NCBI RefSeq assembly: GCF_936925435.1
Contig: NZ_CAKZHQ010000003.1
Coordinates: forward strand, 186,001 to 250,000
Direction: 5' to 3'
Source: an uncultured Ramlibacter sp.
Lineage (GTDB): Bacteria; Pseudomonadota; Gammaproteobacteria; Burkholderiales; Burkholderiaceae_C
DNA length: 64,000 nucleotides
Part shown: in pieces, positions 1 through 7,579 of the stretch
Position numbering within the stretch: position 1 is the stretch's first letter
Layout: each line of letters begins with the position of its first letter
The notes under the pieces: generated by a model
Database searches by the model: none
What the model was told of the DNA's origin: nothing
The model's input: the letters and a program-made list of their open reading frames with translations, nothing else
Program-made: the position numbers and the translations under genes

Positions 1-575
1 AGCAGCTGGCCGACTACCTGCCCACCGGCTGCCACGCCAGCATCGTGCTGGTGGCTGAAGAAAGCGAAGCCGCCTTCCTGGAGCTGGTGACCCAGTTCGG
101 CGGCACTGTCAGCTACCGCAAGACCGCGGCCGAAGTGGCGGCCAGCAACCGCACCTTGCTGGAATACACCTGGAACCACACGACGCTGCACGCCATGCGG
201 GTCGACAAGAACCTGACCTATCTGCAAAGCGCCTTCACCGCCGGCCAGCACCTGGAGCAGGTGCGCACCATGGAAAAGCTGCTGGGCGGCGAGGTGATGA
301 TGCACACCGAGTTCATCCGCAACATGGATGGCCTGATGACCTGCACCGCCTTGCAACTGGTGAAGTTCAGCACCGAGGAACGATTGAACGAGATCATGCA
401 GATCCACCGCGACAACGGTGTGCGCATCAACGACCCACACGTCTTCATCGTGGAAGACGGCCGAGCCAACGGCGAGCTGCCCGCCGCCGTGCTGGCCACC
501 AAGCGCCGCTTCGATCCACACAATCTGCTCAACCCCGGCAAGGTCCGGACCTGGGCGCGGGGCATCCCCCAATGA
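1..575 (+). CDS. FAD-linked oxidase, C-terminal part (partial)
   Basis: The frame is open from base 3, so the gene starts outside the window; about 190 C-terminal residues are visible. They match the C-terminal cap domain of the FAD-linked oxidases (glycolate oxidase GlcD, D-lactate dehydrogenase type), including the typical ending KRRFDPHNLLNPGKV. The flavin-binding N-terminal half is not visible, so the substrate is unknown. The stop overlaps the ATG of the next gene by four bases (ATGA), which points to translational coupling with the RidA-like protein. An oxidase that makes imines, next to an imine-handling protein, would make sense, but that is inference. Confidence 0.85.
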   Translation, partial: QLADYLPTGCHASIVLVAEESEAAFLELVTQFGGTVSYRKTAAEVAASNRTLLEYTWNHTTLHAMRVDKNLTYLQSAFTAGQHLEQVRTMEKLLGGEVMMHTEFIRNMDGLMTCTALQLVKFSTEERLNEIMQIHRDNGVRINDPHVFIVEDGRANGELPAAVLATKRRFDPHNLLNPGKVRTWARGIPQ

Positions 576-1030
576 GCACGATGGGCAAGCCGATGGCCAA
601 CTACGCAGCCGCAAAGCGCGTGGGCGACTTCGTCTTCCTCAGCGGCGTGGTGGCCGTCGATCCCATGCGCAAGGCCGTGGTGCAGAGCTACGAAGAACTG
701 CCGGCCGAAGCCATGGAGCAATTGAAGAGCCTGGGCTACGTCACGGGCCAGATGACGGTGGACATCTACGAGGCGCCGGCCGTCGCGCAGAGCTGGTTCG
801 TGCTCGACCGCATCCGCCAGATCGCCAGAGAGCATGGCGGCGAGATGAAGGACGCGGTCAAGCTGGTCCAGTACTTCCGCGACCTGCGCCACTACCCGTT
901 CTACAACCGCGTGCGCGGCCTGTTCTACCCCGGTGAACCACCGGTGAGCACGGTGGTCGAAGTGGCGCGCTTCATGCCCGGCGATGGTGCGTTGATCGAA
1001 GTGGAGGCAACGCTGTACCTGCCCAAGTAG
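572..1030 (+). CDS. RidA/YjgF/UK114 family protein
   Basis: A 152-residue protein of the Rid family, slightly longer than the usual 125-130 residues. The C-terminal signature VVEVARFMPGDGALIEVEA is clear. In E. coli RidA the arginine that holds the imino-acid carboxylate lies just before this motif (PARSCVEV). Here the matching stretch reads PVSTVVEV, so a serine sits at that position and 2-iminoacid deaminase activity should not be assumed. Members of the Rid2-Rid7 groups often lie in catabolic operons and act on reactive enamines or imines. The gene is coupled to the FAD oxidase upstream and ends directly before a sigma-54 promoter. Confidence 0.85.
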   Translation: MSTMGKPMANYAAAKRVGDFVFLSGVVAVDPMRKAVVQSYEELPAEAMEQLKSLGYVTGQMTVDIYEAPAVAQSWFVLDRIRQIAREHGGEMKDAVKLVQYFRDLRHYPFYNRVRGLFYPGEPPVSTVVEVARFMPGDGALIEVEATLYLPK

Positions 1031-1046
1031 TGGCACGCCACTTGCA
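1031..1046 (+). promoter_or_regulatory. Sigma-54 (RpoN) -24/-12 promoter
   Basis: TGGCACGCCACTTGCA matches the RpoN consensus TGGCAC-N5-TTGC(A/T) without a mismatch, with exactly ten bases between the GG (1032-1033) and GC (1044-1045) elements. Transcription would start near 1057, about 115 bases before the binding-protein gene at 1172. It begins on the base after the stop codon of the RidA-like gene. Sigma-54 promoters of catabolic operons usually answer nitrogen limitation or a dedicated enhancer-binding activator; no activator gene is visible in the window. Confidence 0.8.
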
Positions 1047-1073
1047 TCAAATTTGACGGAGTAGAAGCAGTCA

Positions 1074-1089
1074 ACGGCGCCAGCGCCGT
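1074..1089. repeat. Short inverted repeat in the sigma-54 leader
   Basis: ACGGCGC-CA-GCGCCGT has two perfect 7-base arms around a 2-base centre. It lies just downstream of the predicted sigma-54 transcription start and before the ATG of the binding protein. It could be an operator. The loop is too short for a normal hairpin terminator, and a GC-rich genome makes chance arms more likely. Confidence 0.35.
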
Positions 1090-1171
1090 GGGTCATTGCT
1101 CTGGCGGTGGAAGAGCTCCACCGTGCGCCGATCTGGCGCTTTGTGTTCCACGACATGACCGGAGAAACTGC

Positions 1172-2128
1172 ATGAAACGCGTCCTCGCATCCTTTGCCCT
1201 TGCCGCAACCGCCCTCGCCTCCCAGGCGCAGGACAAAGTCACCTTCCTCACCTCCTGGTACGCCCAGGCCGAACACGGCGGCTACTACCAGGCCATCGCC
1301 ACCGGCATCTACAAAAAATACGGCCTCGACGTCACCGTCAAGATGGGCGGCCCCCAGGTCAATGCGATCCAGATCATCGCCGCCGGCCAGGCCGACTTCA
1401 TCATGGGCAAGGACTTCCAGACCCTGTCGGCCATCGAGAACGGCGTGCCCCTGACCACGGTGGCGGCTGTGTTCCAGATGGAGCCCCAGGGCATGGTGAC
1501 GCACACCGACGTCAAGGGCCTGGCCGACCTCAAGGGCAAGACCATCCTGCTGGCCACCAGCGGCCGCACCAGCTGGTGGCCCTGGCTGAAGATCAAGCAC
1601 GGCCTGAAAGACGACCAGACCCGTCCCTACACCTTCAGCATGGCGCCCTTCTTCGCCGACCCGAACATGGCACAGCAGGGCTACCCCGGCTCCGAGCCCT
1701 TCATCGCCGAGAAGGCCGGCCAGAAGGTCAAGTTCTTCCTGTTCGCCGACGAAGGCTATCCGCCGTATGGCAACACCATCGTCACCACGCGCCAGATGGT
1801 CAAGGACAAGCCCGAACTGGTGCAGCGCTTCGTCAAGGCCACGCTGGAAGGCTGGAAGAGCTACCTGGCCAACCCGGCGCCCGGCAACGCGCTGATCAAG
1901 CAGGACAACCCCAAGATGGAAGACGAGCTGATCGCCTATTCCGTCAAGACCATGAAGGAGATGAAGTTCATGGACGGCGGCGATGCTGCCAAACTGGGCG
2001 CGGGCGTGATGACAGACGCGCGCTGGAAACAGACCTACGACCTCATGGTCACCAGCGGCCAGCTCAAGCCCAACCCGAACTGGCAGCAGGCCTACACCCT
2101 GCAGTTCCTCAAAGACCTGAAGAAGTAA
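1172..2128 (+). CDS. ABC transporter substrate-binding protein, NMT1/THI5-like (SsuA/TauA type)
   Basis: A 318-residue periplasmic binding protein. The start at 1172 was chosen because MKRVLASFALAATALASQAQ is a clean Sec signal peptide and GGAGA lies seven bases upstream; an in-frame earlier start at 1088 adds a non-secretory leader. The mature N-terminus (VTFLTSWYAQAEHGGYYQA) and the GPQVNAIQIIAAGQADF stretch are typical of NMT1/THI5-like proteins, which bind thiamine-pyrimidine precursors, aliphatic sulfonates or other N-containing small molecules. No permease or ATPase is adjacent. It is the first gene after the sigma-54 promoter and 15 bases before the Rieske genes, so it probably delivers their substrate. 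Confidence 0.88.
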   Translation: MKRVLASFALAATALASQAQDKVTFLTSWYAQAEHGGYYQAIATGIYKKYGLDVTVKMGGPQVNAIQIIAAGQADFIMGKDFQTLSAIENGVPLTTVAAVFQMEPQGMVTHTDVKGLADLKGKTILLATSGRTSWWPWLKIKHGLKDDQTRPYTFSMAPFFADPNMAQQGYPGSEPFIAEKAGQKVKFFLFADEGYPPYGNTIVTTRQMVKDKPELVQRFVKATLEGWKSYLANPAPGNALIKQDNPKMEDELIAYSVKTMKEMKFMDGGDAAKLGAGVMTDARWKQTYDLMVTSGQLKPNPNWQQAYTLQFLKDLKK

Positions 2129-2143
2129 GAAGGGAGGCCAGCC

Positions 2144-3196
2144 ATGCTCGTCACCCAACAAGCTGTGCTGCGGCGTTTCTGGTACGCCGTCATGCCCATG
2201 GACAAGCTCGATGCCGGGCCCCAGCCCTTCACCCTGCTGGGCGAAAACATCGTTCTCTGGAAAAAAGCCGACGGCACACCGGCCGCCGTGCGCGACCGCT
2301 GCTGCCACCGCACGGCCAAGCTCTCCAAGGGCTTCGTCGAGGGCGACAACATCGTCTGCGGCTACCACGGCTGGACCTACGACTGCAGCGGTGCCTGCGT
2401 GAAGATTCCGCAGGCGCCCGACATGCAGGTGCCTGCCGGCGCGCGCGTACCGGCCTACCACTGCGCCGAGAAATTCGGCTACGCCTGGGTCGCGCTGGAC
2501 GACCCGCTGCTGCCGCTGCTGGAGACCGAGGAAGAAGCCGCCGGCTACCGCCGCATCCACCAGTTCGACGAAACCTGGGCCACAGGCGCGCTGCGGCTGA
2601 TGGAGAACTCCTTCGACACGGCGCACTTCGCCTTCGTCCACGCCGGCACCTTCGGCCAGGGTGGGCAGCCCAAGCCCGAGCACTTCGCGCTGAACGAAAC
2701 GGAGTACGGCTTCGAGGCGCAGGTGGTGGTCAAGATCAACAACCCTCCTGAATCGCACCGCATCACAGGCACGACCGATCCGACCACCACGCGCAGCTTC
2801 ACCAACCAGTGGCACCTGCCCTTTCTGCGCAAGCTGGGCCTGAACTACCCCAGCGGCATCAAGCACACCATCTTCACCTGCGCCACGCCCATCGACGACC
2901 ACCATGTGCAGCTGATCCAGTGGCTCTACCGCAACGACACCGAAGAGGATTGCCCGGCCGCCCTGCTCAATGAGTGGGACACCAAGGTGGTTCTGGAAGA
3001 CAAGGTCATCCTGGAATCCGTCGACGCCGACGCGCCAGTGGACGTGGGCCGCCGCGACGAGCAGAGCATGGCCAGCGACCGGCCCGGCATGCTGATGCGC
3101 AAACGCCTGCTCGCCCTGCTCAAGGAGCATGGCGAGACCGAGGTCCACGGCTGGACCCGTATTCATCCCGTCACGCAGGAGTTGCAAGAATGCTGA
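2144..3196 (+). CDS. Rieske [2Fe-2S] oxygenase (N-/O-demethylase-like), first of a tandem pair
   Basis: A 350-residue ring-hydroxylating oxygenase alpha subunit. The Rieske cluster ligands are Cys53-x-His55 and Cys72-x2-His75. The mononuclear iron site is in MENSFDTAHFAFVH, with Asn155, Asp158, His161 and His166, and a C-terminal LEDKVILES segment carries the expected third-ligand Asp. Length and layout match the VanA/NdmA group of O- and N-demethylases rather than dioxygenases with a beta subunit. No ferredoxin or reductase lies in the window, so an electron donor must be supplied from elsewhere. It overlaps the second copy by seven bases. Substrate unknown; a methylated N-heterocycle is an inference from the neighbours. 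Confidence 0.88.
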   Translation: MLVTQQAVLRRFWYAVMPMDKLDAGPQPFTLLGENIVLWKKADGTPAAVRDRCCHRTAKLSKGFVEGDNIVCGYHGWTYDCSGACVKIPQAPDMQVPAGARVPAYHCAEKFGYAWVALDDPLLPLLETEEEAAGYRRIHQFDETWATGALRLMENSFDTAHFAFVHAGTFGQGGQPKPEHFALNETEYGFEAQVVVKINNPPESHRITGTTDPTTTRSFTNQWHLPFLRKLGLNYPSGIKHTIFTCATPIDDHHVQLIQWLYRNDTEEDCPAALLNEWDTKVVLEDKVILESVDADAPVDVGRRDEQSMASDRPGMLMRKRLLALLKEHGETEVHGWTRIHPVTQELQEC

Positions 3197-4245
3197 CCAC
3201 TCAACAAAAGGTGCTGCGCCGCTTCTGGTACGCACTCATGCCCATGTCCTTCCTGGACGATGGCCCCAAGCCCTTCACCCTGATGGGCGAGGACATCGTT
3301 CTGTGGAAGCAGGCCGACGGCACGCCAGCCGCGGTGCGCGACCGCTGCTGCCACCGCACGGCCAAACTCTCCAAGGGCTTCGTCGAGAACGGCAACATCG
3401 TCTGCGGCTACCACGGCTGGACCTACGACTGCACAGGCAGCTGCGTGAAGATTCCGCAGGCCCCCGACATGCAGATCCCGGCCAGCGCCAAGGTGCCGGC
3501 CTTCCGTGCACAGGAAAAGTACGGCTATGTCTGGGTGGCGCTGGACGAGCCGCTCAAGCCCATCCCGCATTTCCCGGAAGACGGCGCGCCCGGCTACCGC
3601 CGCATCTTCCAGTTCTACGAGGAATGGAAGACCAGCCCGCTGCGCATGATGGAGAACTCCTTCGACAACTCGCACTTCTCCTACGTGCACAAGGCCAACT
3701 TCGGCATCCTGGAGAACCCCAAGCCCGCGCCGTATGAGTTCCGTGAGACCGACTACGGCTTCGAGGCCGAGACCCATGTGCCCATCCGCAACATCGAGGC
3801 GGGACACAGCGTCACGGGCACGACCGAGCCCATCACCGAGCGGCACCTGATCAACCGCTACTACCTGCCGTTCGCACGGCGCTTCGGCTGCACCTACCCG
3901 GCCAGCGGCATCGACCACATCATCTACAACTGCGCCACGCCCATCGACGATGAACGCATGATGCTGGTGCAATGGCTGTACCGCAACGACAGCGAAGAGG
4001 CCTGCAGCACGCAAAAGCTGATTGACTGGGATGCCGCCATCACGGCGGAAGACCGCGACATCCTGGAAGCCACGGACGCCGATGCCTGCGTGGACACGCG
4101 GCGCAAGGTGGAATTCCACATGCCGTCGGACAAGCCCGGCCTGGTGATCCGCAAGCAGTTGCTGGACCTGCTCCATGCCCACGGCGAGGAAGAGATCCAC
4201 CGCGGCAATGTTGCCAACCCGCCCGCCATCAAGGCGGTGGCATGA
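3190..4245 (+). CDS. Rieske [2Fe-2S] oxygenase (N-/O-demethylase-like), second of a tandem pair
   Basis: A 351-residue paralogue of the preceding gene, alike over its whole length, starting at MLTTQQKVLRRFWYA inside the end of the first copy. The Rieske ligands fall at the same residues (53, 55, 72, 75). The iron site MENSFDNSHFSYVH carries Asn156, Asp159, His162 and His167. All catalytic residues are kept in both copies, so neither looks like a decaying duplicate. The two could be two enzymes for successive steps, or subunits of a mixed oligomer as reported for the caffeine demethylases NdmA and NdmB. The stop overlaps the deaminase start by four bases. Confidence 0.88.
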   Translation: MLTTQQKVLRRFWYALMPMSFLDDGPKPFTLMGEDIVLWKQADGTPAAVRDRCCHRTAKLSKGFVENGNIVCGYHGWTYDCTGSCVKIPQAPDMQIPASAKVPAFRAQEKYGYVWVALDEPLKPIPHFPEDGAPGYRRIFQFYEEWKTSPLRMMENSFDNSHFSYVHKANFGILENPKPAPYEFRETDYGFEAETHVPIRNIEAGHSVTGTTEPITERHLINRYYLPFARRFGCTYPASGIDHIIYNCATPIDDERMMLVQWLYRNDSEEACSTQKLIDWDAAITAEDRDILEATDADACVDTRRKVEFHMPSDKPGLVIRKQLLDLLHAHGEEEIHRGNVANPPAIKAVA

Positions 4246-5660
4246 GTGTTCTGATCCGCAACGCCACGGCCATCCTCACCGGCCTGCGCGGTGATGGTGC
4301 GCGCCATGCAGGCCCCGACATCCGCATCGAGGGCAGCAAGATCGCCGCCATGGGCGCGCTCACGCCGCTGCCAGGCGAGCAGCAAATCGACGCCAGGGAT
4401 TGCGTGGTCTATCCGGCCTGGGTCAACACCCACCACCACCTGTTCCAGTCCCTGCTCAAGGGCGATCCGCAGGGCATCAACGCCACGCTCACACCCTGGC
4501 TGACGGCCACGCCCTGGCGGCTGCGGCCCGGCATGGACGAGGCCATGTTCCGCCTGGCAGCGCGCATCGGCCTGGTGGAGCTCGCCCTGTCCGGCTGCGG
4601 CACGGTGGCCGACCACAACTACGCCTACTGGCCGGACATGCCGTACGACGGCTCGGCCATCCTGTTCGAGGAGGCCCAGGCCCTGGGCCTGCGCTTCGCC
4701 CTGTGCCGCGGCGGCGGCACCCTGTCGCGCATGAAGACCGAGGACCTGCCGCCTTCGCTGCGGCCCGAGACCCTGGACGGCTACCTGGCCGACATCGAGC
4801 GCCTCGCGACGCGCTTCCATGACGCAGCACCCGATGCGATGCGCCGCGTGGTGGTGGCGCCGACCACGCCGCCGCACTCCATGCAGCCGCAGCAGATGCG
4901 CGAATGCGCGGCCGTGGCGCGCAAGCTCGGCCTGCGCCTGCACTCCCATCTGTCGGAGACGGTGGCCTACCACGACAGCGTCCATGCGCAGCACGGCATC
5001 AAGCCCATCCACTTCGCCGAGAGCATCGACTGGCTGGGGCCGGATGTCTGGTTCGCCCACCTGGTCAAGCTCGATGCCGACGAGATCGCCCTGCTGGGCA
5101 GCACCCGTACCGGCATCGCCCACTGCCCGCAAAGCAATGGCCGTCTGGGCAGCGGCATCGCCCCGGTGCGCGCGCTGGAGGACGCCGGCGCCACCGTGTC
5201 CATCGGCGTCGACGGCGCGGCCTCCAACGAGGCGGCCGACATGCTGTCGGAAACCCATGCGGCCTGGCTGATGGCGCGTGCCCGGGCCGGCGAGGCGGCT
5301 GTGGCCTTGCACCGCGGCGGCCAGGGCGAGAACAACGCGGCCGCGGCGGCAACGGTGGAAGACGTGGTGCGCTGGGGCACGGCCGGCGGCGCCAAGGTGC
5401 TGGGCCTGGATGCGGTGGGCACGCTGGCGCCGGGCCAGGCCGCCGACATCGCCATCTACTCGCTCAAGGACGACCCGCGCTACTTCGGCCTGCACGACCC
5501 CGCCATCGGCCCGGTGGCCAGCGGCGGCGCCGCCCATCTCAAGAGCCTGCTGGTGGCAGGCCGCGAGGTGGTCCGCGACAGCAGCCTGGCCGGCGTCGAC
5601 CTGCAGGCCCTGGGCCGACAGGCGCGCGAAGCCGTGGCGCGGCTGGCTGCTGTGGCCTAG
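4242..5660 (+). CDS. Amidohydrolase, 8-oxoguanine deaminase / s-triazine hydrolase-like
   Basis: A 472-residue metal-dependent deaminase. The first metal motif is VNTHHHLFQSLLK with His64 and His66. Later ligands are visible in LRLHSHLSE and VWFAHLVKL, and the catalytic aspartate is in SIGVDGAASNEA. The HCPQSNGRLGSG and GVDGAASN motifs place it with the 8-oxoguanine deaminase/AtzA-TrzN branch of the ATZ/TRZ amidohydrolases. It is the last gene of the sigma-54 cluster and would release ammonia from an oxidised or demethylated purine-like ring. Exact substrate uncertain: 8-oxoguanine, another oxopurine or a triazine are all possible. Confidence 0.85.
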   Translation: MSVLIRNATAILTGLRGDGARHAGPDIRIEGSKIAAMGALTPLPGEQQIDARDCVVYPAWVNTHHHLFQSLLKGDPQGINATLTPWLTATPWRLRPGMDEAMFRLAARIGLVELALSGCGTVADHNYAYWPDMPYDGSAILFEEAQALGLRFALCRGGGTLSRMKTEDLPPSLRPETLDGYLADIERLATRFHDAAPDAMRRVVVAPTTPPHSMQPQQMRECAAVARKLGLRLHSHLSETVAYHDSVHAQHGIKPIHFAESIDWLGPDVWFAHLVKLDADEIALLGSTRTGIAHCPQSNGRLGSGIAPVRALEDAGATVSIGVDGAASNEAADMLSETHAAWLMARARAGEAAVALHRGGQGENNAAAAATVEDVVRWGTAGGAKVLGLDAVGTLAPGQAADIAIYSLKDDPRYFGLHDPAIGPVASGGAAHLKSLLVAGREVVRDSSLAGVDLQALGRQAREAVARLAAVA

Positions 5661-7579
5661 GCCGCGCCGCGCGCGGCCGCGAAGGCCAGGGCCGCGCGCA
5701 AGGCCGCCAGCGCCTGCGGCTCGGACAGCAGGGAGTCGGGGCGGAACAGCAGGGCCACCAGGCTGTGCTGCGGCTGCGCCAAGGCCACCGGCCTGTCGTG
5801 CGCGTCCGTGGCCCAGACCTGCCAGCCCACCGGCACGCCCTCCAGCTGGAAGCTGGCATAGCGGGCCGCGATGAAGGCATTGTCGCTGCGCCAGGGCGCA
5901 TCGGCCTGCAGCTTGCACAGCAACAGGCGGCCATGCTCGGGCGCGATGCGCTGCACCTGCCCACCATGCAAGGCAAGCAGCTGGTAGGCCGCATCGCCGA
6001 TCGCCACCACGCTGCGCGGCGGCCAGGCGGCGGTGGCCGGCGCGCCGGCCACGACCGTCACGGCCGCTGCGTCGTTCAAAACCAAGCCCAGCCCCAGCAG
6101 GCAGTCGCGCGCCGCGTTGCCGAATGGGTCCTGCGCATCCAGCAAGCGCACCGCCTGCGGCAGTGCCGCAGCTGCCTGCTGGCCGTCCGGCACCGCGCCC
6201 ATGGCCGCCTCCAGGCCGAAGGCACGCCAGAGCGACAGGGTCTTGAGCCGCGACTCCTGCTCTTCGCGCTCGGGCGAGGAATCGGCCATCAGGTCACCGC
6301 CGGTGCGCACTTCGGCCACGCCGCCGCGCACCGCGGCTGCACGCAAGATGGTGCCGGCCAGCGCATCGCCGTTGGACGCCACCTGCACGAACAGGCCGCC
6401 GTACCAGCCGCGCGGGCTGGCCTCCAGCGCGCTGATGGCGGCCAGGGCATGGGCGCGCGGCGTGCCCGTCACCATCACCGGCGCGGCCGTCGCAGCGATG
6501 GCATCCCAGGCATCGGCACCATCGCGCAGGCGCCCCTGCAGCCGGTCCACCGCGTGGACCACGGTGGCCAGCGACATGGTCCGTCGCCGCTCGCTGAGCA
6601 CCAGACTGCCCGGCACACACAAAGGCGCCAGATCGTTGCGCAGGGCGTCGGTGCACACGGCCAGCGAGGCCGCGTCGACATCCTCGTTCATCAGCTCGCG
6701 CAGCGATTCGGCTTCGCCCACGGCGCCGGGCCGGCGCCGCACCGTGCCGCAGACCGGCAGGGCCTGGACCGCACGGCCGCTCACCACCAACTGCAGGTCG
6801 GGCGAAGCGCCCAACAGCTGCAAGCCCTGGCCATCGTCCAGAAAGAAGCTGGCCGGCGCCGGGTTGGCGGCGCGCAGGCGGGCAAAGGCCTGGGCCGGCG
6901 CCATCTCGACGCGTCGCCGGTAGCTCTGGCTCAGGGTCAGCGAGACCAGGGGCTGCTCGCGCAGCCAGCCCAGCGCCCGCCCCACCATGGCGGCATAGCC
7001 GCCGGGTGCATGGTCGTCGCCCGGTTCGGTTGCTGTTTGCGGCGTGTGCGCCAAGGGCGGCGGCATTGCGGCTGCCGCAGCGCCCGGCAAACTCAAATGC
7101 AGGCTGTGCCACTGCCCACGGGCGTCGCGCCGCAGCAGCTTCTCGCCGAAGAACAGTACGCCCAGCGGCTCACCCGAACTGCCGGGCCGGGCCAGCTTGT
7201 GGGCAGCGAAGGGCAAGGCTCCTAGCAGCAGCACATCGGCCGAGGGTGTGAAGCAGGCCAGGAAGCCACGCAGTGCCTGCAGGGTGTCGGTGCCGGGGCC
7301 GCGCTGCAAGCCGGAGCGCCAGGCGGCCAACGCCGGCTGCGCCAGCAGCGTCGCGCCGAAGGGACTGAGCACCTGCGCCTGCAGACCGTCGCCAAACAGG
7401 CGCAGGGCCAGGGCGGGCTGCTCGATGAGCGTGGCCTGCAAGGGATGCAGGCCGGCGATGCCGGCGTCGACGCCGAAGTAGGCGCCGGGTGCCTGGCCCA
7501 GGCGGGCCAGGGCTTCTTGCGCCTGCTGCGCGCTGGCGTCGCTGCGCGCGACGGCCAGGTCGATCGTGCCCTCGCTCAC
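5657..7579 (-). CDS. Anthranilate-synthase-like chorismate enzyme with degenerate glutamine amidotransferase domain
   Basis: A 640-residue protein built like the fused TrpE-TrpG anthranilate synthases and PhzE. The chorismate-binding part holds VCGTVRRR, RNDLAPLCVPGSL, VVHAVDRLQG, MVTGTPRAHAL, RGWYGG and TGGDLMADSSPEREEQ. The last 150 residues follow the fold of a class I glutaminase, but the three catalytic residues are gone: the GVCLG nucleophile loop is replaced by AIGDAAY (no Cys), and FHPES reads FRPDS (His to Arg, Glu to Asp). It therefore cannot use glutamine by itself. It might use free ammonia, borrow a partner glutaminase, or use water as an isochorismate synthase would. It overlaps the TctC-type gene by four bases. 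Confidence 0.75.
   Translation of the reverse strand: MSEGTIDLAVARSDASAQQAQEALARLGQAPGAYFGVDAGIAGLHPLQATLIEQPALALRLFGDGLQAQVLSPFGATLLAQPALAAWRSGLQRGPGTDTLQALRGFLACFTPSADVLLLGALPFAAHKLARPGSSGEPLGVLFFGEKLLRRDARGQWHSLHLSLPGAAAAAMPPPLAHTPQTATEPGDDHAPGGYAAMVGRALGWLREQPLVSLTLSQSYRRRVEMAPAQAFARLRAANPAPASFFLDDGQGLQLLGASPDLQLVVSGRAVQALPVCGTVRRRPGAVGEAESLRELMNEDVDAASLAVCTDALRNDLAPLCVPGSLVLSERRRTMSLATVVHAVDRLQGRLRDGADAWDAIAATAAPVMVTGTPRAHALAAISALEASPRGWYGGLFVQVASNGDALAGTILRAAAVRGGVAEVRTGGDLMADSSPEREEQESRLKTLSLWRAFGLEAAMGAVPDGQQAAAALPQAVRLLDAQDPFGNAARDCLLGLGLVLNDAAAVTVVAGAPATAAWPPRSVVAIGDAAYQLLALHGGQVQRIAPEHGRLLLCKLQADAPWRSDNAFIAARYASFQLEGVPVGWQVWATDAHDRPVALAQPQHSLVALLFRPDSLLSEPQALAALRAALAFAAARGAA

Follow-up and report, generated by a model that had tools for sequence, protein, structure and literature searches.

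The stretch of DNA analyzed here, referred to below as the window, comprises 64,000 nucleotides (nt) from an uncultured Ramlibacter sp. (bases 186001-250000 of contig C3, NZ_CAKZHQ010000003.1, in a genome of 4.49 Mb). Close to its left end, an RpoN (sigma-54) promoter and a xanthine riboswitch precede the genes for an NMT1-domain periplasmic binding protein, two Rieske oxygenases (A and B) and an amidohydrolase. Immediately upstream lie the genes for an FAD-binding-4 oxidase, the penultimate gene of a second operon, and for a Rid-family protein, with seven more genes on the same strand ahead of the oxidase gene (Table 1). Apart from the riboswitch and these seven genes, the gene set, its order, its short overlaps and the intactness of both Rieske genes had been noted in an initial annotation made from the sequence alone and are confirmed here; that the operon is built as described is nearly certain.

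We propose, with a probability of about one half, that this is a nitrogen-scavenging operon in which an imported pteridine-like (or purine) ring is hydroxylated and deaminated towards xanthine, the product that is sensed by the riboswitch. The operon ties this riboswitch class to nitrogen-type control, through RpoN and through NtrC-like sites in relatives, and makes the question of the substrate directly testable in laboratory Burkholderiales.

The RpoN promoter and the xanthine riboswitch

The stop codon of the rid gene ends at 1030, and the next base opens the RpoN site: TGGCACGCCACTTGCA, at 1031-1046, differs at no position from the consensus TGGCACGNNNNTTGCW and is the sole match with at most one mismatch in the 64-kb window. 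Matches with up to two mismatches number 11, versus a mean of 18.6 in shuffled sequences, so that only the perfect site carries weight. This promoter had already been named in the initial annotation and stands, both by its perfect match and by the conservation of its place among related loci. Absent from that annotation is the element located between the promoter and the first gene, namely a xanthine riboswitch aptamer of the family RF03054, matched over its full length (positions 1-56 of 56) with 53.3 bits against a gathering threshold of 36. It is the sole Rfam match above threshold in the window and the only xanthine riboswitch found in the genome; before the upstream operon (L009:12500-20000), no second riboswitch was detected at E <=1.

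The two elements were followed through 80 genome loci that hold relatives of the amidohydrolase (66-85% identity to that of the window; the best 80 of 193) and five loci from a plasmid collection (together L011-L095). These loci are related to one another, such that the counts given below are not independent events, and some are truncated by contig ends; matches covering <=40% of the query were dropped from the first gene calls. A covariance model of our own, built from 25 aptamers and with 22 columns invariant in those 25 sequences, found 78 aptamers in 87 sources; 72 of the 85 loci have at least one, as does the window. An RpoN site is located 27-30 nt ahead of the aptamer core in 65 of the 78 at <=2 mismatches and in 72 at <=3, versus a mean of 0.115 of 78, and a maximum of 1 in 200 rounds, for random places in the same loci. 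Promoter and aptamer thus appear to form one module. RpoN transcription usually begins 12 bases past the -12 element, which would put the start at about 1057 and, given the fixed spacing, the core at about +2 to +5; by the placement of its promoter, the aptamer should be the first-transcribed structure of the operon mRNA.

Six aptamers have no RpoN site at this spacing, five from Ramlibacter or Caenimonas (L015, L018, L019, L020, L022) and one from Paracoccaceae (L093). An RpoN site with 0-1 mismatch lies ahead of the upstream operon instead in L018, L019, L020 and L022, so that the riboswitch may be internal there; the contig of L015 is incomplete. The module was also sought in a survey of 300 genomes of Burkholderiales, the own genome included, which overlaps the first set of loci (L112 and L067 are probably one genome). 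Leaving aside the own genome, the survey yielded 19 riboswitches, chosen regardless of the deaminase; an RpoN site was found in the range of 25-40 nt ahead of the core in 14 of them at <=2 mismatches and in 17 at <=3. These sites lie 28-32 nt before the core, save those of L116 and L118, at 37. No site was found for L115 and L117, and L115, L116, L117 and L118 are all below the Rfam threshold.

Further candidate elements of nitrogen-type control lie upstream of the module. An exact NtrC-like palindrome, GCAC-N7-GTGC, is present in 23 of the 78 upstream stretches (230 nt each), versus 1% of random stretches. A second RpoN-like site, with two mismatches, lies at L009:13678, before the upstream operon, and an RpoN site (0-2 mismatches) precedes the flavodoxin gene in all nine loci compared (the own one and eight others, L060 and L064 being left out as loci where this gene sits elsewhere), although only 26 nt ahead of it in L019.

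The aptamer fold (P1/P2a/P2b) pairs 92.3% of the alignment cells. P2 displays 137 double changes versus 46.5 in shuffles, a contrast helped by the fitting of the alignment to the model, and P1 hardly varies. According to Yu and Breaker (2020, PMC7373994), who trace the motif to Weinberg 2017, one member of the class binds xanthine and urate, with binding abolished by a methyl on N1, N3 or N7 of either compound, and another member, the sole one with its sign tested, is an OFF switch that probably acts at translation. Uptake of the thiamin pyrimidine, which the NMT1/THI5 name would imply, is rejected for the class in the same paper. In constrained folding of the window leader, accessibility of the Shine-Dalgarno sequence was 0.55 when free and 0.52 with the aptamer formed, and ten leaders gave no clear switch sign. 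The 3' strand of P1, CUCUGG (1099-1104), is complementary to the Shine-Dalgarno stretch CCGGAG (1159-1164), and pairings like this one can be drawn by eye in some close relatives.

In nine loci (L038, L051, L062, L079, L092, L105, L106, L108, L113), riboswitches occur in back-to-back pairs, each with an RpoN-like site (<=3 mismatches); in the first five of these, a 2-oxoglutarate (2OG) oxygenase gene lies on one side of the pair and an NMT1 gene on the other.

The amidohydrolase and its solved relative

The amidohydrolase scores 727 bits with the NCBIfam model PRK12393 (cut-off 543) and 397 bits with the 8-oxoguanine deaminase model PRK08203, under the cut-off of 532. Its best solved relative is 2PAJ, with 672 bits and 66.2% identity over 470 amino acids, compared with 264 bits for 8-oxoguanine deaminase and <=160 for triazine hydrolases; it is an orthologue of 2PAJ. 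We take 2PAJ to be isoxanthopterin deaminase. In the 2010 work of Hall, guanine and the other purines of the tested library are said not to have been substrates of 2PAJ, and a Gln, a Tyr and two Thr residues reportedly have roles in its catalytic pocket.

The metal ligands and the residues aligned to Q69, Y127, T208 and T209 are kept in 87-88 of the 88 aligned sequences. The Thr-Thr pair is kept in 87, the one exception being the 8-oxoguanine deaminase paralogue of the own genome, which has Cys-Ser (APCS). This paralogue, encoded on C51 (696 bits against the cut-off of 532), shares one contig with xdhA, xdhB, xdhC, hydroxyisourate hydrolase and the allantoinase PuuE; for the urate-oxidising step, L102:4058-5275 gave no model match. 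The description of the window enzyme as oxoguanine-deaminase-like in the initial annotation is therefore abandoned: its score is below the cut-off, its pocket letters differ, and the true 8-oxoguanine deaminase is encoded elsewhere in the genome.

In the passage of PMC5270733 that cites it, isoxanthopterin deaminase (Hall 2010) is linked with Sargasso Sea DNA, isoxanthopterin and pterin-6-carboxylate; PMC11121863 likewise cites Hall 2010 for this enzyme. The protein of L089 (Paraburkholderia fungorum) shares 99.2% identity with the 2PAJ chain and that of L085 shares 92.9%, and both loci carry the riboswitch, an NMT1 protein, a Rieske enzyme, the ATPase, the permease and a PRK12393 deaminase. 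Given the near-identity to the L089 protein, the kinetically characterised enzyme would, if 2PAJ is indeed isoxanthopterin deaminase, be a member of a xanthine-riboswitch operon.

A more distant homolog, 50% identical to 2PAJ and with the same APTT letters, is encoded on plasmid pNK83 of Caballeronia sp. NK8 (L095). It adjoins UbiD and UbiX homologs, a nucleobase symporter and further amidohydrolases, no riboswitch was found at this locus, and it perhaps represents a second pteridine or purine carboxylate pathway.

Rieske and 2OG-Fe(II) oxygenases

Both Rieske proteins keep the CxH-x16-CxxH and HxxxxH motifs and have a VanA_C domain. Within the PDB, Rieske A is closest to NdmA (138 bits) and Rieske B to SxtDIOX (140 bits) and SxtT (132), followed by NdmA (126); NdmA and NdmB are among the closest to both. 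SxtDIOX and SxtT are ring hydroxylases, and because Rieske B is nearer to these than to NdmA, we prefer ring hydroxylation over demethylation as the probable activity of the pair. For Rieske B, 40 plasmid records were listed, one at 56% and all the rest at 31%.

For the oxygenase neighbours, matches with <45% identity (40% for 2OG, 38% for VanB) or >9 kb from the deaminase were also dropped. A Rieske and/or 2OG-Fe(II) oxygenase is encoded within this distance in 81 of 84 loci, the exceptions being L052 (an 8-kb contig), L063 and L071, and in all 72 riboswitch loci, of which 47 have Rieske genes only, nine 2OG genes only and 16 both. Such interchange at one place suggests that two unrelated oxygenase types can serve one defined oxidation.

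Distribution and genomic associations

The closest relatives of the amidohydrolase in the genome collection come from Burkholderiales. A comparison of gene orders, as called for in the initial annotation, showed that the unit of NMT1, Rieske, ATPase, permease and amidohydrolase genes is found repeatedly in Burkholderiales and Pseudomonas; of the 80 genome loci, 14 also have the FAD oxidase and rid genes of the window. Laboratory strains are represented among the operons compared by Paraburkholderia xenovorans LB400 (L080) and Herbaspirillum huttiense (L034). The riboswitch, the second NMT1 gene and one Rieske gene are missing from L014, L024, L025 and L027.

In the survey, the riboswitch was found in 14 of the 300 genomes at E <=0.001, in 10 of them above threshold. 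It is present in 9 of the 17 genomes with a deaminase above cut-off versus 5 of the 283 without (Fisher p ~1e-9, kinship ignored), and in five of these nine (G000, G119, G178, G242, G255), the two lie within 10 kb of each other.

The plasmid collection includes a 120-kb Klebsiella record (L091, NZ_CP074582.1) in which the cluster stands among chromosomal-looking genes, as well as a 5.4-Mb Klebsiella record; both are possibly mis-filed pieces of chromosome.

Proposed pathway and alternative explanations

We consider the following scheme, of an operon under double control, the most likely. When nitrogen is short, the RpoN polymerase would be activated at 1031-1046 by NtrC or by some other enhancer-binding protein, and the transcript, starting near 1057, would carry the xanthine aptamer as its first structure, with xanthine or urate binding controlling translation of the first gene. 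The NMT1 binding protein, working with the ATPase and permease encoded upstream, would import a ring, most likely that of a pterin, for example isoxanthopterin; the two Rieske hydroxylases and the isoxanthopterin-type deaminase, presumably in that order, would act on this ring, releasing ammonia. Possible further contributors, all encoded upstream, are the FAD oxidase and two hydrolases, one creatininase-like and the other cytosine-deaminase-like. The riboswitch in the leader constrains the product of the pathway, which would be xanthine or a xanthine analogue; the xanthine dehydrogenase of the cell could take this product further, and the product would also shut the operon down. In outline, this scheme bears out the initial annotation, which suggested that an N-heterocycle is taken up, oxidised in its ring and deaminated. 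It would also connect an enzyme group for which pterin activity has been reported with a riboswitch class whose purpose, like the role of its partner oxygenases, was left open by Yu and Breaker (PMC7373994). The odds that we give to the substrate are about even, and the strongest support for a pterin is the 2PAJ identity.

Several observations weigh against a pterin substrate or against parts of this scheme. The published ligand of the riboswitch is a purine, the authors who reported it favour purine oxidation, and isoxanthopterin, although bought for the ligand tests, goes unmentioned as a binder in the main text (PMC7373994). The amidohydrolase of the window is 66%, not 99%, identical to 2PAJ. 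No VanB-type Rieske reductase is encoded among the cluster genes; the best candidate, 43% identical to the Klebsiella one, is on contig C4, beside another Rieske-type gene. The window has no exact NtrC-like palindrome, and its one-mismatch copy is of a quality reached by 19% of random stretches. The complementarity of P1 to the Shine-Dalgarno stretch would rather point to an ON switch, contrary to the published OFF sign. In the survey, 8 of the 17 genomes with a deaminase above cut-off have no riboswitch, and 7 of the 14 loci (L105-L110, L113) consist of a riboswitch-oxygenase unit with no such deaminase within the 9-14 kb retrieved, although three of these genomes (L107, L109, L110) encode one elsewhere. 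The riboswitch thus tracks the oxygenases more closely than the deaminase. This is the weakest point of the case for a pterin: units that lack the deaminase fit a purine substrate equally well, and for this reason the pterin is held at about one half.

If the substrate is a purine, hypoxanthine (as with HpxD) or some other purine would be converted to xanthine through hydroxylation by the Rieske enzymes, and the role of the amidohydrolase would be to deaminate a guanine-type base, its pterin activity being secondary. The deaminase-less units agree with this explanation, as do the proximity of Rieske A to the methylxanthine demethylase NdmA, the binding of xanthine and urate by the riboswitch and the likening of the oxygenases to HpxDE by Yu and Breaker (PMC7373994). 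Nevertheless, it seems somewhat unlikely to us, given that the amidohydrolase keeps the Thr-Thr of 2PAJ rather than the Cys-Ser of 8-oxoguanine deaminase that the genome already encodes an 8-oxoguanine deaminase above cut-off along with xanthine dehydrogenase, and that purines are reported not to have been substrates of 2PAJ. The substrate might instead be an N-methylated purine or a modified nucleobase (methylxanthines, or methylguanines from RNA), to be salvaged by Rieske A and B as N-demethylases and then deaminated to xanthine. The VanA_C demethylase domain and the presence of NdmA and NdmB among the closest solved relatives of both proteins point in this direction, and because methylated xanthine or urate is not bound by the aptamer (PMC7373994), only the demethylated product would be sensed. 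The higher scores of Rieske B with SxtDIOX and SxtT than with NdmA, and the 9 of 72 riboswitch loci that have a 2OG-Fe(II) oxygenase and no Rieske gene, make such salvage quite improbable. A xenobiotic, triazine or creatinine pathway, of which triazines and creatinine were mentioned in the initial annotation, could be read from the creatininase-family and cytosine-deaminase/AtzC-like proteins encoded upstream and from the distant relationship of triazine hydrolases to the amidohydrolase. We found no support for it: triazine hydrolases reach <=160 bits against 672 for 2PAJ, the creatininase model gives 89 bits against its cut-off of 235, and a xanthine riboswitch would not fit, all of which renders this pathway extremely unlikely.

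Returning to a pterin substrate, the two operons might encode a complete pteridine-to-purine ring contraction, with the xanthine riboswitch on an NtrC/RpoN promoter as the end-product sensor, although we regard this as rather doubtful. In such a route, the oxygens at positions 6 and 7 would come from the Rieske pair (or from a 2OG oxygenase encoded elsewhere), and loss of the 2-amino group would be the work of the PRK12393 enzyme. One of the two upstream hydrolases, creatininase-like or cytosine-deaminase-like, would then cleave the pyrazine amide in such a way that the ring closes again as an imidazole. McNutt, working on Alcaligenes in the 1960s, is said to have described the route from isoxanthopterin through 7-hydroxylumazine, tetraoxypteridine and xanthine-8-carboxylate to xanthine. 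To our knowledge, tetrahydroxypteridine cycloisomerase (EC 5.5.1.3) is an orphan enzyme, which the ring contraction, if true, would provide with a gene.

Neighboring genes

The coordinates of the features are given in Table 1. The NMT1 gene probably starts at 1172, the mechanically called open reading frame of 1088-2128 starting too early. The Rid-family protein has Val (PPV), as does 3lyb, at the position of the Arg (PAR) of 2dyy, 1x25, 3k0t and 6izh. This Arg is an active-site residue of canonical Rid proteins, so that the RidA-like imine handling assumed in the initial annotation is not supported. For 6v42, a solved relative of the FAD oxidase, no paper on function was found. On the opposite strand, a chorismate-binding (TrpE-like) gene at 5657-7579 shares four bases with the 3' end of the amidohydrolase gene; even its best NCBIfam matches fall well short of the cut-offs (for example, 242 versus 645 bits).

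Table 1. Features of the operon and of the operon upstream. Positions are those of the window unless prefixed L009 or L010.
Feature	Position	Strand	Remarks
RutR-like TetR gene	L009:12968-13597	+	C-terminal domain PF08362; RutR model 116 bits, cut-off 368
Flavodoxin-fold oxidoreductase	L009:13828-14415	+	Upstream operon
Cytosine-deaminase-like (AtzC-like) amidohydrolase	L009:14412-15665	+	Upstream operon
Creatininase-family protein	L009:15678-16532	+	Creatininase model 89 bits, cut-off 235
Second NMT1 protein	L009:16593-17579	+	Upstream operon
ABC (ATP-binding cassette) ATPase	L009:17579-18397	+	Upstream operon
ABC permease	L009:18394-19197	+	Upstream operon
FAD-binding-4 (GlcD-like) oxidase, 3' part	1-575	+	Whole gene L010:1211-2575, begins 789 bases before the window
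Rid-family protein	572-1030	+	Closest solved relative 3lyb
RpoN (sigma-54) -24/-12 promoter	1031-1046	+	GG 1032-1033, GC 1044-1045; 0 mismatches
Xanthine riboswitch aptamer (RF03054, NMT1 RNA)	1054-1106	+	53.3 bits; conserved GAGTAGAAGC core from 1059
Shine-Dalgarno GGAG of first gene	1161-1164	+	Probable riboswitch target
NMT1-domain periplasmic binding protein (SBP-B)	1172-2128	+	Domain match
Rieske oxygenase A (Rieske + VanA_C)	2144-3196	+	Closest solved NdmA, methylxanthine demethylase
Rieske oxygenase B	3190-4245	+	Shares 62% identity with A; best PDB matches SxtDIOX and SxtT, followed by NdmA
Amidohydrolase PRK12393, 2PAJ orthologue	4242-5660	+	PRK12393 model 727 bits, cut-off 543

Comparison with known systems

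The riboswitch, the enzyme families and their association have already been published. The operons of Yu and Breaker (PMC7373994) share with the window the aptamer family and the named partner genes, that is, NMT1 proteins, Rieske and 2OG oxygenases and PRK12393 amidohydrolases. In the available text of that paper, the functions of the oxygenases are stated as not established, the genes are read as purine oxidation, with the oxygenases likened to HpxDE, and no pathway is worked out. The view of the initial annotation that no pathway with this gene set had been described thus holds for the pathway but not for the gene association. Two differences stand out. By word search, RpoN and NtrC are absent from the main text of PMC7373994, and "sigma" occurs there solely as the name of a firm. 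Its authors liken the deaminase to guanine and 8-hydroxyguanine deaminases, whereas the window enzyme groups with 2PAJ. In searches of the open-licence literature, no statement of either the RpoN-aptamer module or the link between 2PAJ and the riboswitch was found.

Klebsiella HpxDE (Riva 2008, cited in PMC7373994) is a purine-ring oxygenase that serves nitrogen-source use; the account of it in the available part of PMC7373994 mentions no such deaminase and no riboswitch. Variovorax sp. F1 (PMC9513972) resembles the proposed pathway in that a betaproteobacterium deaminates pterins and breaks down folate. Its deaminase, however, is an orthologue of Agrobacterium Arad3529, and no Rieske enzyme is named in the part of that paper available.

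Much closer in gene content are the clusters of Klebsiella pneumoniae and Rahnella victoriana (L091, L094), which share with the window the FAD oxidase, ABC transporter, creatininase, Rid, cytosine-deaminase-like, NMT1 and PRK12393 proteins as well as the riboswitch. They differ in that a 2OG-Fe(II) oxygenase gene takes the place of the Rieske pair, genes for a VanB-type reductase and a LysR regulator belong to the cluster, the genes form two divergent runs and the RpoN-like site has three mismatches. 2PAJ and the window amidohydrolase have the same metal and pocket letters, and near-identical orthologues of 2PAJ are encoded in the same type of operon.

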